A DNA stretch of 64,000 nucleotides, from positions 1 through 64,000 of IMG/VR virus record IMGVR_UViG_3300042445_001340. One strand, written 5' to 3'. This document shows positions 50,309 to 57,690 of the stretch, piece by piece (positions within the stretch are counted from its first letter, which is position 1; the number at the start of each line of letters is the position of its first letter). The notes under the pieces were generated by a model. The model ran no database searches and was not told the DNA's origin. It was given only the letters and a program-made list of their open reading frames with translations. The stretch is from a virus. Made by a program: the position numbers and the translations under genes.

Positions 50309-50617
50309 TTAAAAGGGCACATCATCGTCTTGAATACTGCGAATCATTTCGCGTTCTTGCTTGACTAAATCGTCTTCAAGCCAAGGTTTGACTTCCTGCT
50401 CTTCATGAATCTTCCAAGCTGCAAAACTAGCCTGCTCTTGGATTAGTTCAATTGCCTCAGGCTGAAACTTAACATAACCAGACTTTTCTGCCCAGATTAA
50501 ATATTCGTAGTGATCTTGAGCTACATCACAAATTCTGCATCCGGCTAGTTTGCCAAATGTTATTGTGTCGGTTAAACCCAGTTTAGGATTTTTGATGTTT
50601 TTGAATGATATTGCCAT
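50309..50617 (-). CDS. DUF3820-like protein
   Basis: A 102-residue protein. TITFGKLAGCRICDVAQDHYEYLIWAEKSGYV matches the 'FGKYKG..YL.W..' pattern of DUF3820-type domains, found alone in phages or at the end of exonucleases (pattern split here: TITFGKLAG, EYLIWAEK). Its start codon ATGG lies within the arm of an RNA helix that begins at the CCA of tRNA-Ser(TGA). Confidence 0.65.
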   Translation of the reverse strand: MAISFKNIKNPKLGLTDTITFGKLAGCRICDVAQDHYEYLIWAEKSGYVKFQPEAIELIQEQASFAAWKIHEEQEVKPWLEDDLVKQEREMIRSIQDDDVPF

Positions 50618-50713
50618 ATATTAGAAAACAGCCCTTACCCCGATGATGTTATCGTTGGACAACAGGTATCTCCCCTGCTTTTTTATAATGGATGCTATTT
50701 TCTAATATATGGC
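50614..50713 (-). ncRNA. CCA-anchored structured spacer (element E0)
   Basis: Arms CCATATATTAGAAAA (RNA sense; 50713-50699) and its complement (50628-50614) can pair over 15 bp and extend past a bulge. The first arm starts with the CCA of tRNA-Ser(TGA); the second contains the start codon of the 50617 gene. The interior has a small CAGG/CCTG hairpin. Not a known family to me. Confidence 0.6.
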
Positions 50714-50801
50714 GGGTGGCAGAGGAGTCGAACCCCATCCCGTTTCCGAGAACCTGGTTTTCAAGGCCAGTCGCAGGACCAACCCCGCTGCATTACCACC
50801 C
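50711..50801 (-). tRNA. tRNA-Ser(TGA)
   Basis: Class II tRNA with long variable arm, loop CTTGAAA, acceptor GGGTGGT/GCCACCC, discriminator G, CCA encoded. Confidence 0.93.
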
Positions 50802-50806
50802 ACGTT

Positions 50807-51394
50807 TTATTCTTTTGTTTCCGATTCTGCTTCGCGCTTGGCTTGCATGGCAGTTAAACGCTTGACTACTTCTTCTGATCCCATCCAAATGTCTTTGTTG
50901 TGCATCATTGAGGATATTTCTTCACTAGTCAAAAAGTCCTGGTACACTTCAGTCATGAAGTTTTCCGACCACGTACGTTCAAATTGCAGTTGATCGTACA
51001 TTTCACCACCTTTGCCAAATGTTCCGGCTGAGTAGTTGTGAAACATAAATAAGCTGTGTGGTGTGACTTCTTGACTATGACCATGTAGGAAAATCATGGT
51101 AGCTGCACTCATGCAAGCACCTTCTACACTGCACACAATAGTGGCTTCTGTTTCACCCATTACACGCAAAAACTGTAGTGTGGTAAAAAGATCACCACCA
51201 GGTGAGTTAATATAAATACGAACTGTATCGGTTGCACTAGCATTTCTGATTACATCAAACCATTCAATGTATTCTTCAGCATCACAAATTTCGCCACTTA
51301 AGTAGAACTCATGAACATGTGCAACTGGTTTTGTAAAATTGTTAGAAAACTTGTCGGTTTGAAACAATTTAGGGTCGAGAAAGTTAGATCGCAT
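50807..51394 (-). CDS. clpP: ClpP-like serine protease
   Basis: A 195-residue protein of the ClpP fold. INSPGGDLFTTLQFL (oxyanion and substrate region), EGACMSAATMIFL with the nucleophile Ser (about residue 98), MFHNYSAG with the catalytic His (about 122), and NKDIWMGSEE with the Asp (about 171). So the Ser-His-Asp triad is intact. No ATPase partner is visible, so it would use host ClpX/ClpA or act alone. It begins about 12 bases after the last helix of the tmRNA locus, with an AAGGAA site, implying co-transcription. Confidence 0.88.
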   Translation of the reverse strand: MRSNFLDPKLFQTDKFSNNFTKPVAHVHEFYLSGEICDAEEYIEWFDVIRNASATDTVRIYINSPGGDLFTTLQFLRVMGETEATIVCSVEGACMSAATMIFLHGHSQEVTPHSLFMFHNYSAGTFGKGGEMYDQLQFERTWSENFMTEVYQDFLTSEEISSMMHNKDIWMGSEEVVKRLTAMQAKREAESETKE

Positions 51395-51405
51395 AAGTTC
51401 CTTTA

Positions 51406-51857
51406 CTATAGTTTAACATACTACCCATGCTGGGTGCTCCCAGTTACCCGCGGAAGGTGTGCTGCAGTCTACTCCGCATATATGCATTAAGTGGCAAGTA
51501 ATATGCTAAACTATAGTGACAGCTTATTCTGTTACGAGGAAAGCTGTCGAAACCCTAAGCAGCCCTATTTAGGCTGCCAATGCGTACGTGTTATCGTTTG
51601 CAGTTATTTTTGTTTTGTGTCTGCGGCCAGGAATCCCTAACCCTACGGCTTCTACATTGCCGAGTTGTCCGCTTTGCTACTCTTAGCCCGGTCGATCCTG
51701 TGTCAGGCCCATCAAAAGCACTCCTAGTGTTCCTAGGTCGGGAATTCCAGCCATCAGCCGTATGAGAAACAGCTTACTTGCTACCCTACTCAATGCTTAT
51801 GGTGGACCTGGCGGGCACTGCCCCCGCGTGTCAGACTCTTTTGGTTTCGCTTCATAC
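51406..51857 (-). ncRNA. ssrA: Circularly permuted (two-piece) tmRNA
   Basis: On the minus strand the acceptor piece comes first: T-arm GCGGG-(7 nt)-CCCGC, acceptor CAGGTCC, discriminator A and CCA (ending 51800). An 89-base spacer (51711-51799) follows, then the coding piece starting GGGCCTG at 51710, which pairs with CAGGTCC (one G-U). It continues ACAGGATCGACCGGG, like the tmRNA D-loop region, a CGGC/GCCG hairpin, and ACAAAAATAACT before the resume codon. The tag frame at 51601-51569 reads ANDNTYALAA then TAA inside a GCAGCC/GGGCTGC hairpin. A 15-bp closing helix (51406-51420 with 51499-51513, one G-U) ends the RNA. Boundaries are approximate; the gene order is the permuted type. Confidence 0.88.
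51569..51601 (-). other. tmRNA tag-peptide reading frame
   Basis: Codons GCA AAC GAT AAC ACG TAC GCA TTG GCA GCC then TAA give ANDNTYALAA. The E. coli tag is ANDENYALAA. The LAA end is the ClpX recognition signal. Confidence 0.9.
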
Positions 51858-51858
51858 A

Positions 51859-51956
51859 ACCATATCTATAACCACTAGGGACTCGAACCCCGTATTCTGG
51901 TGGCCTACCAGTAGTTCCAAACTGCCAGAGCGACTGGTAGTGGTTATAGATATGGT
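51859..51956 (-). ncRNA. tRNA-like element with 19-bp extended stem (E1)
   Basis: Perfect 19-bp arms ACCATATCTATAACCACTA (RNA sense from 51956) and its complement (51877-51859). The first arm starts at the ACCA end of tRNA-Thr. The interior holds tRNA features: TAACCAC/GTGGTTA acceptor-like pairing, TA, a CCAG/CTGG D-like arm and a GGGGTTCGAGTCCC T-arm, but no clean anticodon arm and no CCA. Possibly a degenerate class II tRNA; it ends where the tmRNA acceptor piece starts. Confidence 0.6.
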
Positions 51957-52026
51957 GCCCCATGACAGAATCGAACTGCCGTAACCTGATTACAAAACAG
52001 GTGTAATACCATTATACTAATAGGGC
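51953..52026 (-). tRNA. tRNA-Thr(TGT)
   Basis: Acceptor GCCCTAT/ATGGGGC, loop TTTGTAA, T-loop TTCGATT, CCA encoded; the CCA begins the E1 helix. Confidence 0.93.
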
Positions 52027-53545: not shown

Positions 53546-53965
53546 TTACATTTTACCGTTTAATTTATTTATATTACAGGCTTCTTCGTAACCATACTTA
53601 GCTACTACATTCTCAAAAGGACTCTTATGAGTACCATTAAGCCTAGCATCTGCAACATTCTCTTTTCTAGTACCCCAATACAGATGTTGTGGATTAGAGC
53701 ACTCACCATTGTTACAAGCATGGCATAAGTCTATACCAATACCTTTCGGAAAATTAGTATTCAAGTATTGCGCTAATACGCCTCTATGATTAGTACTATT
53801 ACCACCACGTTCTATACATGGTTGGCTTAAGTCTAAATGAGAAGTTCTAATATCTCTGGATTCTTTAATCCATTCAGTTATTTGAATCATAAATTTGGTG
53901 GAAACAGTTTGACTCGAACAAACAAGGCCAGTGGCAAAAGATTTACAGTCTTCCCCCGATACCAT
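53546..53965 (-). CDS. HNH endonuclease
   Basis: Start at 53965 (MVSGEDCKSFATGLVCSSQ), because the longer frame runs back through tRNA-Trp. The 139-residue protein has CIERGGNSTNHRG and the nuclease core LCHACNNGECSNPQHLYWGT with paired Cys/His and the N...H motif. Free-standing HNH nucleases are common selfish genes in phage tRNA arrays. A 17-bp-spaced promoter lies at 53996-54024. Confidence 0.85.
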   Translation of the reverse strand: MVSGEDCKSFATGLVCSSQTVSTKFMIQITEWIKESRDIRTSHLDLSQPCIERGGNSTNHRGVLAQYLNTNFPKGIGIDLCHACNNGECSNPQHLYWGTRKENVADARLNGTHKSPFENVVAKYGYEEACNINKLNGKM

Positions 53966-53995
53966 TACGGGACTATGTTTCCACTTTAAAAGATA

Positions 53996-55345: not shown

Positions 55346-55374
55346 ATTATACAGCGATTTAACTGTAACTTCAA
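55346..55374 (-). promoter_or_regulatory. Promoter within the tRNA array
   Basis: TTGAAG, 17-bp spacer, TATAAT on the minus strand, about 17 bases upstream of tRNA-Glu. Confidence 0.8.
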
Positions 55375-55379
55375 CTGAA

Positions 55380-55508
55380 TATTTATAAGTTTAACCCTAA
55401 CCACGGGCGAGTATGAGTCGAGACGTGGGCCTATTGCAACTACTAGGTGGATTAGTCCGTTCGTAAAGGATTGGTAATCACTCCAACTTAGGGTCAAACT
55501 TATAAATA
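55380..55508 (-). ncRNA. Structured spacer bounded by a 21-bp helix (E2)
   Basis: Arms TATTTATAAGTTTGACCCTAA (split: 55508-55488) and complement at 55400-55380 pair over 21 bp with one G-U, starting three bases after the tRNA-Phe CCA. Interior hairpin CCACG/CGTGG. Lies directly upstream of the tRNA-Glu promoter. Confidence 0.6.
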
Positions 55509-55510
55509 CT

Positions 55511-55586
55511 TGGTGCCGAAGACTGGGGTCGAACCAGTGACACACGGATTTTCAATCCGCTGCTCTACCGCCTGAGCTACATCGGC
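55511..55586 (-). tRNA. tRNA-Phe(GAA)
   Basis: Anticodon stem GCGGA/TCCGT, loop TTGAAAA, canonical T-loop TTCGACC, CCA encoded. Confidence 0.95.
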
Positions 55587-56442: not shown

Positions 56443-56610
56443 TTATACTTTTATGTCTACGTTTATGCCACGACTAGGGTCTACAGGTCTGTAGTAGACT
56501 ACTTGTTGCACAAACTCTTTGTTATTTTGGTCTACTTTAGTTGTGTAGACTATCTCACGTATTTTACCCAAATACGGAGTAAATGTTCTTGAAACGCTTT
56601 TTGTTTCCAT
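56443..56610 (-). CDS. Small hypothetical protein
   Basis: A 55-residue beta-rich protein (METKSVSRTFTPYLGKIREI, VYYRPVDPSRGINVDIKV). Its ATG lies in the arm of the 20-bp helix E3, so its translation could depend on that structure. The stop is one base from tRNA-Leu(TAG). Confidence 0.6.
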   Translation of the reverse strand: METKSVSRTFTPYLGKIREIVYTTKVDQNNKEFVQQVVYYRPVDPSRGINVDIKV

Positions 56611-56792
56611 ATTGTTGTATACTTTGTTTACTACCCACCCCGCTAAGGGTGTGTTTCTGGCTTAGCGTATTCATGACGTACACCTGTACCAGAACTCAAG
56701 CCATACCCACTAACCTTCCCGGGTGTTAGTGTTCTCAAGCTTGCAATGTTCCATAACTGAATTGGCCACTAGCAAAGCATACAACAATATGG
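56607..56792 (-). ncRNA. Structured spacer bounded by a 20-bp helix (E3)
   Basis: Arms CCATATTGTTGTATGCTTTG (RNA sense, 56792-56773) and CAAAGTATACAACAATATGG (56626-56607) pair over 20 bp with one G-U. The first begins with the tRNA-Pro CCA; the second contains the next CDS start. Inside: CACTAAC/GTTAGTG and TTCTGG/CCAGAA hairpins. Confidence 0.65.
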
Positions 56793-57179: not shown

Positions 57180-57250
57180 CCATAATTTAACACACTAAAC
57201 TACTTAGGCTGCAATAGGAGCCATTGTTCGCCTAATGTGTTAAATTATGG
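57180..57250 (-). ncRNA. Hairpin element with 15-bp arms (E4)
   Basis: CCATAATTTAACACA (RNA sense, 57250-57236) pairs perfectly with 57194-57180. It starts at the CCA of the 174-base tRNA gene; inside are TTAGGC/GCCTAA and CAAT/ATTG pairs. Confidence 0.65.
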
Positions 57251-57421
57251 TGGATCGGGCAGGACTCGAACCTGCTACAATAAATTATACAACACACGAC
57301 CATGTATTCGAACTCAGGCTGAATTGTAGCTGATTACGCCGTTGCAGGGCCAGGGTCAACTATCTACATTCAAAAGTGTTGTATGCCGGCTTTGTGCTTT
57401 AACCATATAAGCTACCGATCC
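57248..57421 (-). tRNA. tRNA gene with about 100-base insertion
   Basis: Acceptor GGATCGG/CCGATCC, D-arm GCTT/AAGC, T-arm GCAGG-TTCGAGT-CCTGC and CCA are canonical. Between D- and T-arms are about 125 bases instead of about 22, organised by ATACAACAC/GTGTTGTAT and GTAG/CTAC helices. No anticodon can be read. Tyr is the only amino acid missing from the array, so a split or inserted tRNA-Tyr is one option. Confidence 0.65.
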
Positions 57422-57505
57422 ATATAAAAACACATTTAAACCGTCCTTCAACGCTAGTCGCTATCTCCCTTACTAGAGGGCGGAACAGTATGTGCTTTTA
57501 TATGG
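57420..57505 (-). ncRNA. Structured spacer with 16-bp arms (E5)
   Basis: CCATATAAAAGCACAT (RNA sense, 57505-57490) pairs with ATGTGTTTTTATATGG (57435-57420) with one G-U. The second arm ends in the first two G of the 174-base tRNA. Inside: a CCCTCTAGTAAGGG-type hairpin. Confidence 0.6.
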
Positions 57506-57690
57506 AGACACTCCCTAAAGTGTCCCAATATAGTCTTGTGTCAGGATGACAGTCCTGCTGTATCTTAGAATATCCAAACATTCCCTCTACAGCGGCGGGA
57601 CGTTTATTTTACAAAGACGGGGCTTTCACCCGTTTCGACCGAAGTGTGCTGCTAACCACTAGGGATGTGGCAACAAGCATGGCGGGACTT
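57506..57690 (-). ncRNA. Unassigned structured spacer (R7)
   Basis: About 185 bases without a gene. Hairpins GACACT/AGTGTC just before a CCA, CAGGA/TCCTG (57542-57557) and ACGGG-(7)-CCCGT (T-arm-like). No tRNA could be closed here. Confidence 0.4.

Follow-up and report, generated by a model that had tools for sequence, protein, structure and literature searches.

In cluster C1 mycobacteriophages and BE Streptomyces phages, a tmRNA accompanies a large set of tRNAs, a combination shared by the unrelated phage analysed here, and their tmRNAs are one-piece molecules without an intervening segment (IVS). Two-piece tmRNAs have been reported as 53 structures among 18,146 phage genomes, mostly aquatic (PMC9004378), and a tmRNA database lists 79 phage sequences of all forms (PMC11915505). 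The OM43 phage Melnitz and other marine phages likewise combine a permuted tmRNA with tRNA genes in a lytic genome; the tmRNA of Melnitz is alphaproteobacterial, and a glutamine riboswitch lies beside its transcription coactivator gene (PMC9004378). Unlike in Melnitz, the gene described here sits in a tRNA array, before clpP, and its IVS holds exchangeable cassettes. Because 53 two-piece structures were already on record and a permuted tmRNA was found in 8 isolates checked, its presence in a phage is not new as such, contrary to what the first-pass annotation of this DNA had implied. Isolated Xanthomonas, Pseudomonas, Stenotrophomonas and Acinetobacter phages (L123, L125, L127, L128 and L132) have permuted tmRNAs; such gammaproteobacteria usually carry a one-piece tmRNA.

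Here, we investigated a window of 64,000 nt, which makes up most of a 68,667-bp IMG/VR virus record. The contig is T5-like, its DNA polymerase being nearest to that of Vibrio T5-like Ermolyevavirinae (48%), and its minus strand carries a circularly permuted two-piece tmRNA at 51861-51519, surrounded by an array of more than 20 tRNAs (ARAGORN). Compared with cultured phages, the DNA of this neighbourhood gave mainly tRNA matches, and none with megablast. The limits of the pieces listed below were set by reading the sequence against the Rfam model alignments; G1 of the coding piece lies at 51710, and its 3′ end (51519) is approximate.

51953 to 52026, minus strand: tRNA-Thr(TGT), directly upstream of the tmRNA in the array (ARAGORN, Rfam).
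51859 to 51956, minus strand: hairpin cassette between the tRNA-Thr CCA and the tmRNA, with a T-loop-like core (19-bp stem, 100% complementary).
51800 to 51861, minus strand: acceptor (3′) piece of the tmRNA, with P2 strands, T-arm, alpha-type T-loop GGCAGTG and acceptor strand CAGGTCC (RF04321, 97.1 bits; covariation).
51802 to 51800, minus strand: encoded CCA closing the acceptor piece (sequence).
51711 to 51799, minus strand: IVS of 89 nt, cassette type J, between CCA and G1 (type J occurs in 22 unique permuted-tmRNA IVSs).
51519 to 51710, minus strand: coding (5′) piece of the tmRNA, with acceptor strand GGGCCTG, D-region CACAGGATCGACC, P2 strands, tag and 3′ hairpin (RF04321 and beta_tmRNA alignments; covariation).
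51569 to 51601, minus strand: tag reading frame ANDNTYALAA plus TAA (ARAGORN; identical tag in L081, L096, L079 and L089).
51547 to 51519, minus strand: conserved hairpin with loop CCTCGTAACAGAA in the 3′ part of the coding piece (sequence against alignments).
51403 to 51519, minus strand: cassette type A in the tmRNA-clpP gap, with a long P1 stem, a conserved core and the loop palindrome CTGCAG at 51467-51462 (inverted repeat; type A family and palindrome test).
50807 to 51394, minus strand: ClpP-like protease of 195 aa with the triad S96-H119-D168 (PF00574, 42.6 bits; phrog_1827, 1.3e-61).

The Rfam model RF04321 (tmRNA_permuted) matches the minus strand at 51861-51569 over its full length (97.1 bits, E value 1.3e-17, cut-off 47), and ARAGORN independently predicts a permuted tmRNA with the tag ANDNTYALAA, which bears out the central claim of the first-pass annotation, namely a phage-borne permuted two-piece tmRNA with this tag inside a tRNA array. 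In the covariance-model comparison that it had proposed, RF04321 thus matches in permuted order, RF01849 (alpha_tmRNA) also passes, with 57.5 bits against a cut-off of 50, and RF01850 (beta_tmRNA) stays below its cut-off, with 58.8 bits against 84. With the Rfam tmRNAs of these three families the locus shares the piece order, the tRNA-like domain, P2 and the tag; it differs in being a mixture, its tRNA-like domain being of alpha type and its coding piece resembling that of its beta-type relatives. We discarded the ARAGORN 5′ boundary at 51892 because it rests on a T-loop-like TTCGAGT that belongs to the upstream hairpin. The span of 51406-51857 initially assigned to the gene stands except at its low end, since 51405-51517 is a separate hairpin element. 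We also considered whether the upstream hairpin of ~90 nt is a missing tRNA and dropped the idea, since this segment matches neither a tRNA nor any Rfam family. ARAGORN missed two tRNA-like genes on the minus strand, at 50715-50800 and 53899-53982; the first resembles tRNA-Ser with the anticodon TGA, and its best Rfam match, to tRNA-Sec, stays below the cut-off at 35.6 bits.

The association of the two pieces was examined in an alignment of the mature pieces of the relatives' permuted tmRNAs (26 distinct rows), using four helices (lower P2, upper P2, T-stem and acceptor; 24 pairs) that were drawn from the window and checked by eye on one relative. Across the 26 relatives, 99.4% of the 624 cells of these inter-piece pairs are paired, as compared with 40-56% in slid controls; both sides have changed in 13 pairs (60 cells), and none of 500 shuffles reaches any of the covariation measures. 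The P2 pairs are GGTTGT/ACAACT and AGTCTG/CGGGCT. The alanine determinant G3.U70 is invariant (26 of 26), and pair 4:69, the neighbour of U70.G3, flips between C-G and G-C, 13 to 13. On comparative sequence grounds, these compensatory changes settle that the acceptor stem, the T-stem and P2 are formed between the two pieces, and the GGGCCTG/CAGGTCC acceptor pairing originally read by eye proved right (7 of 7, with G3.U70). All seven acceptor pairs and G3.U70 recur in 47 of the 47 permuted phage tmRNAs examined, with IVS lengths of 6-160 nt; this count, unlike the covariation test, is partly given by construction, because the start of the coding piece was placed by best acceptor pairing. RF04321 additionally aligns a CGGC/GCCG hairpin in the coding piece. 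The tag begins with Ala and ends in a hydrophobic -LAA followed by a stop, and the relatives keep AN followed by D or E and mostly the ALAA end, their changes falling mostly in the middle residues.

The window's T-loop, GGCAGTG, departs from the canonical TTCGANT. We considered this a sign of gene decay and discarded the idea, because the alphaproteobacterial model has the consensus GGCgGUA at this site; the loop is an alphaproteobacterial form and comes with a matching D-loop. Indeed, among 96 tmRNAs, the D-loop ATCGA accompanies T-loop GGCRG in 18 of 20 cases and other T-loops in 1 of 76, so that these two elements, which the IVS separates in the DNA, nevertheless change in concert. A 39-row ClpP tree, built by a quick method and having many weak forks and some crude IVS labels, requires at least 10 changes of T-loop type, at least 19 of the tag and at least 28 of IVS type. 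Such switching of the tRNA-like domain between alpha- and betaproteobacterial forms, on at least 10 occasions and with D-loop and T-loop moving together, appears to be new.

A ClpP-like protease gene opens a few nucleotides past the downstream type A hairpin. Its PF00574 (Clp protease proteolytic subunit) score exceeds the cut-off of 20.2, and the triad S96, H119 and D168 is invariant in 74-75 rows. Relatives were defined by ClpP, which gave 74 loci in IMG/VR; RF04321 scores above its cut-off in 39 of these 74 records, and 25 of the 25 closest show at least a partial match. The relatives' tmRNA usually lies just upstream of clpP, whose start usually falls ~30-175 nt past the tag stop. Roughly half of the ClpP relatives lack a tmRNA; for the most part these are less closely related, and many are short fragments. 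A ClpP-like protein is present in 1,630 phage records, and no permuted tmRNA was found in ventosus, a cultured phage with ClpP. In the open-licence literature, we found no report of a tmRNA-ClpP link or of the pairing with clpP, and the arrangement in which a tmRNA immediately precedes a phage clpP whose triad is intact, conserved across uncultured relatives, appears to be new. In Erythrobacter phage XM05 (L124, 150218-148992), a permuted alpha-type tmRNA precedes a gene annotated as an HslV family peptidase, which gives a second case of a phage tmRNA close to a protease gene. Because neither SmpB nor ClpX is among the 28 window proteins scanned against Pfam, host factors would be needed.

Considering these data, we assign a probability of roughly 0.8 to the locus being a working two-piece tmRNA of a T5-like phage that is charged and SmpB-loaded by the host, tags proteins for degradation and releases its IVS. 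The transcript of the tRNA array would be cut by tRNA-processing enzymes, with RNase P acting at G51710 and 3′ processing after the CCA at 51800, which would free the IVS as a separate, stem-protected RNA while the two pieces stay joined by the acceptor and P2 helices. Host AlaRS, reading G3.U70, would charge the tmRNA, and host SmpB would bring it to ribosomes that have stalled on mRNAs broken in the course of infection; host ClpX, partnered by the ClpP of either host or phage, could then degrade fragments tagged with ANDNTYALAA, so that ribosomes and amino acids would be recycled for the phage. The permuted layout itself may also offer the phage room for a passenger, with the IVS carrying a structured RNA or a mini-ORF. 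The rescue and tagging roles suggested by the first-pass annotation are, in this respect, plausible proposals.

A long-stemmed hairpin stands on either side of the tmRNA, and at least seven are present in the array. In the 74 loci and the window, 38 of 190 inverted repeats start at a tRNA 3′ end, versus 4.2 expected at random placement; the cassette stems begin at the tRNA CCA and finish beside the next gene, and the stem of the IVS prolongs the acceptor stem. Identical cassette types occupy IVSs, tRNA 3′ ends, the pre-tmRNA gap and the tmRNA-clpP gap. For instance, the pre-tmRNA gap of L029 is matched over 64 nt (89%) by the IVS of L078, and that of L003/L007/L009 by the IVSs of L088, L090 and L111 (79-92%). 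We scanned IMG/VR for four cores (J, E, H and A), removing identical copies before counting. Besides its copies in IVSs, type J, the one in the window's IVS, has 3 unplaced copies. Type E was found 27 times in IVSs and 5 times by a tRNA or tmRNA, with 10 unplaced (mostly cuts at contig ends, missed IVSs and chance coding matches), and type H 7 times in IVSs, once in an IVS-like gene, 7 times beside a tmRNA and 15 times in other places (mostly chance coding matches). Type A occurs 17 times in IVSs, 11 times before a tmRNA, 7 times by tRNAs, twice before clpP and 17 times elsewhere. One exact-pattern scan for each of the E and H cores found neither in 85k bacterial species, and blastn found neither in cultured phages. 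Compared with Rfam, including GOLLD, ROOL, ribozymes and riboswitches, the cassettes gave no match at E<1 for the window and E<0.5 for L144, L207, L240, L286, L313 and L326, and we found no report of IVS cargo in the open-licence literature. Judging by these comparisons, the IVS appears to be an exchangeable structured cassette that is in no catalogue searched and is seemingly new.

Several further elements were observed. The array holds other long-stemmed hairpins at 50611-50715, 55374-55514, 56607-56792, 57180-57250 and 57419-57506, most of them starting from a tRNA CCA and all with different cores, some of which recur in other phages (that of 56607-56792 in L004, L026 and L031). One recurrent cassette, GGCTATAGTGTGTAGG...GAAGCTACCTGG, lies near tRNA-Asp, tRNA-Asn or tRNA-Gln at 17 loci (L003 101-203, L004 3308-3408 and 15 more), and another upstream of tRNA-Trp at 12 loci (L002 1950-2046 and 11 more). 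At 57251-57421 (minus strand), a tRNA (Rfam, 37.7 bits) is split in the anticodon arm by ~97 nt forming the hairpin ATACAACAC/GTGTTGTAT, possibly an intron-like cassette within a tRNA gene. In L086, L094 and L099, the IVS appears to hold, in place of a cassette, a mini-ORF of ~34-49 codons with a ribosome-binding site. L207, L223, L225, L226, L236 and L239 (a 217,966-bp contig) contain a candidate tmRNA-like gene, permuted and tag-less, whose IVS is cassette H; it has the acceptor GGGGAGT/ACTCCCC, P2 AGAATGTTT/AAACATTCT and a GCAA hairpin, shows no visible tag frame and has no Rfam match. Its reading as a permuted tRNA was dropped, P2 and the GCAA hairpin placing it closer to a tag-less permuted tmRNA.

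With the search motif left out, mean identities of IVS, acceptor piece and coding piece are 0.85, 0.76 and 0.68 for type J, 0.89, 0.76 and 0.66 for type E, 0.79, 0.69 and 0.59 for type H, and 0.67, 0.64 and 0.59 for type A. These are recomputed values, since the loci of the first measurement had been found by IVS motifs; the loci are still selected for carrying the motif. The IVS is better conserved than the mature pieces in types J, E and H, and marginally so in type A. Such high identity may stem from selection acting on the cassette, from its recent spread or from a combination of the two.

Type A has the core GCCACUUAAUNNAUAWAUGYGGAG-loop-CUUCYRCGGGU, whose Y:R position is occupied by C-G in 43 cases and by U-A in 9, with no mixed combination. 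Its P1 arms pair far better within sequences (18.5) than between them (8.5) in a swapped-arm control, which works for this type, types E and H having too few distinct arms; because the arms vary, RNAalifold sees only the inner hairpin. A palindrome of at least 6 nt is present in 38 of 42 unique type A loops, versus a mean of 7.0 and a maximum of 15 in 2000 shuffles. These palindromes are of at least 10 kinds, usually at the same offset, so that the sequence changes and self-complementarity stays, the kind of evidence used for the L9.3 kissing loop of OLE (PMC12286853). This pattern supports, and does not prove, an RNA kissing-loop homodimer. GOLLD and ROOL are also phage RNAs near tRNA islands, and together with OLE all three form homo-oligomers (PMC12286853); type A, at ~100 nt, is far smaller, matches no Rfam family and is located in tRNA/tmRNA gaps as well as in IVSs.

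The chances seem evenly balanced that the IVS of phage permuted tmRNAs and the gaps behind tRNA CCA ends constitute a cargo slot for undescribed exchangeable structured RNAs, released by tRNA enzymes, at least one of which (type A) would be a kissing-loop homodimer. A simpler explanation, which we consider rather unlikely, is that the cassettes, including the IVS, are mere processing hairpins that keep tRNAs and tmRNA pieces apart, either as RNase III sites or by blocking exonucleases, and do nothing once excised. The stems running from tRNA CCA to the next gene, the extension of the acceptor stem by that of the IVS and the many unrelated cores found in one slot all fit such hairpins; however, a spacer needs neither a core sequence conserved across unrelated tmRNAs beyond the mature RNA nor the loop palindrome kept by type A. 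The palindromic ends, the movement between slots and the frequent IVS changes on the ClpP tree could instead reflect DNA-level mobile hairpins (MITE-, REP- or attC-like) inserting at tRNA ends and in the IVS. This is improbable, given that the arms differ by site while the cores stay, and that the sequence of the palindromic loop is variable, as would be expected of RNA dimers more than of a DNA site bound by a protein.

As for the tmRNA itself, it might act as a competitor that sequesters SmpB, AlaRS or ribosomes of the host and weakens the host's own tagging, without productive trans-translation. There is a precedent in the tag-less tmRNA-like RNA of phage DS6A (PMC11915505), and the tag-less permuted candidates in other phages point the same way, but here the full tag, the resume context, G3.U70 and the LAA end are kept and tag changes concern mostly middle residues, making a competitor quite improbable. 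That the gene is a captured, functionless remnant, as the non-canonical T-loop and the sub-threshold beta_tmRNA score might suggest, is hardly credible, being already contradicted by the strong compensatory change, the alphaproteobacterial T-loop with its matching D-loop and the conservation of the tmRNA in a large clade.

Returning to the reading of a working tmRNA whose IVS may carry cargo, the IVS of permuted tmRNA has so far been treated as waste. An IVS that outconserves the mature RNA in many phages and is drawn from swappable modules suggests a function for the permuted layout, and the cassettes point to new small phage RNA families, one of them with a homodimer-like evolutionary signature. 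The conserved tmRNA-clpP pair, in turn, raises the question of whether the phage tags and degrades proteins with a protease subunit of its own.
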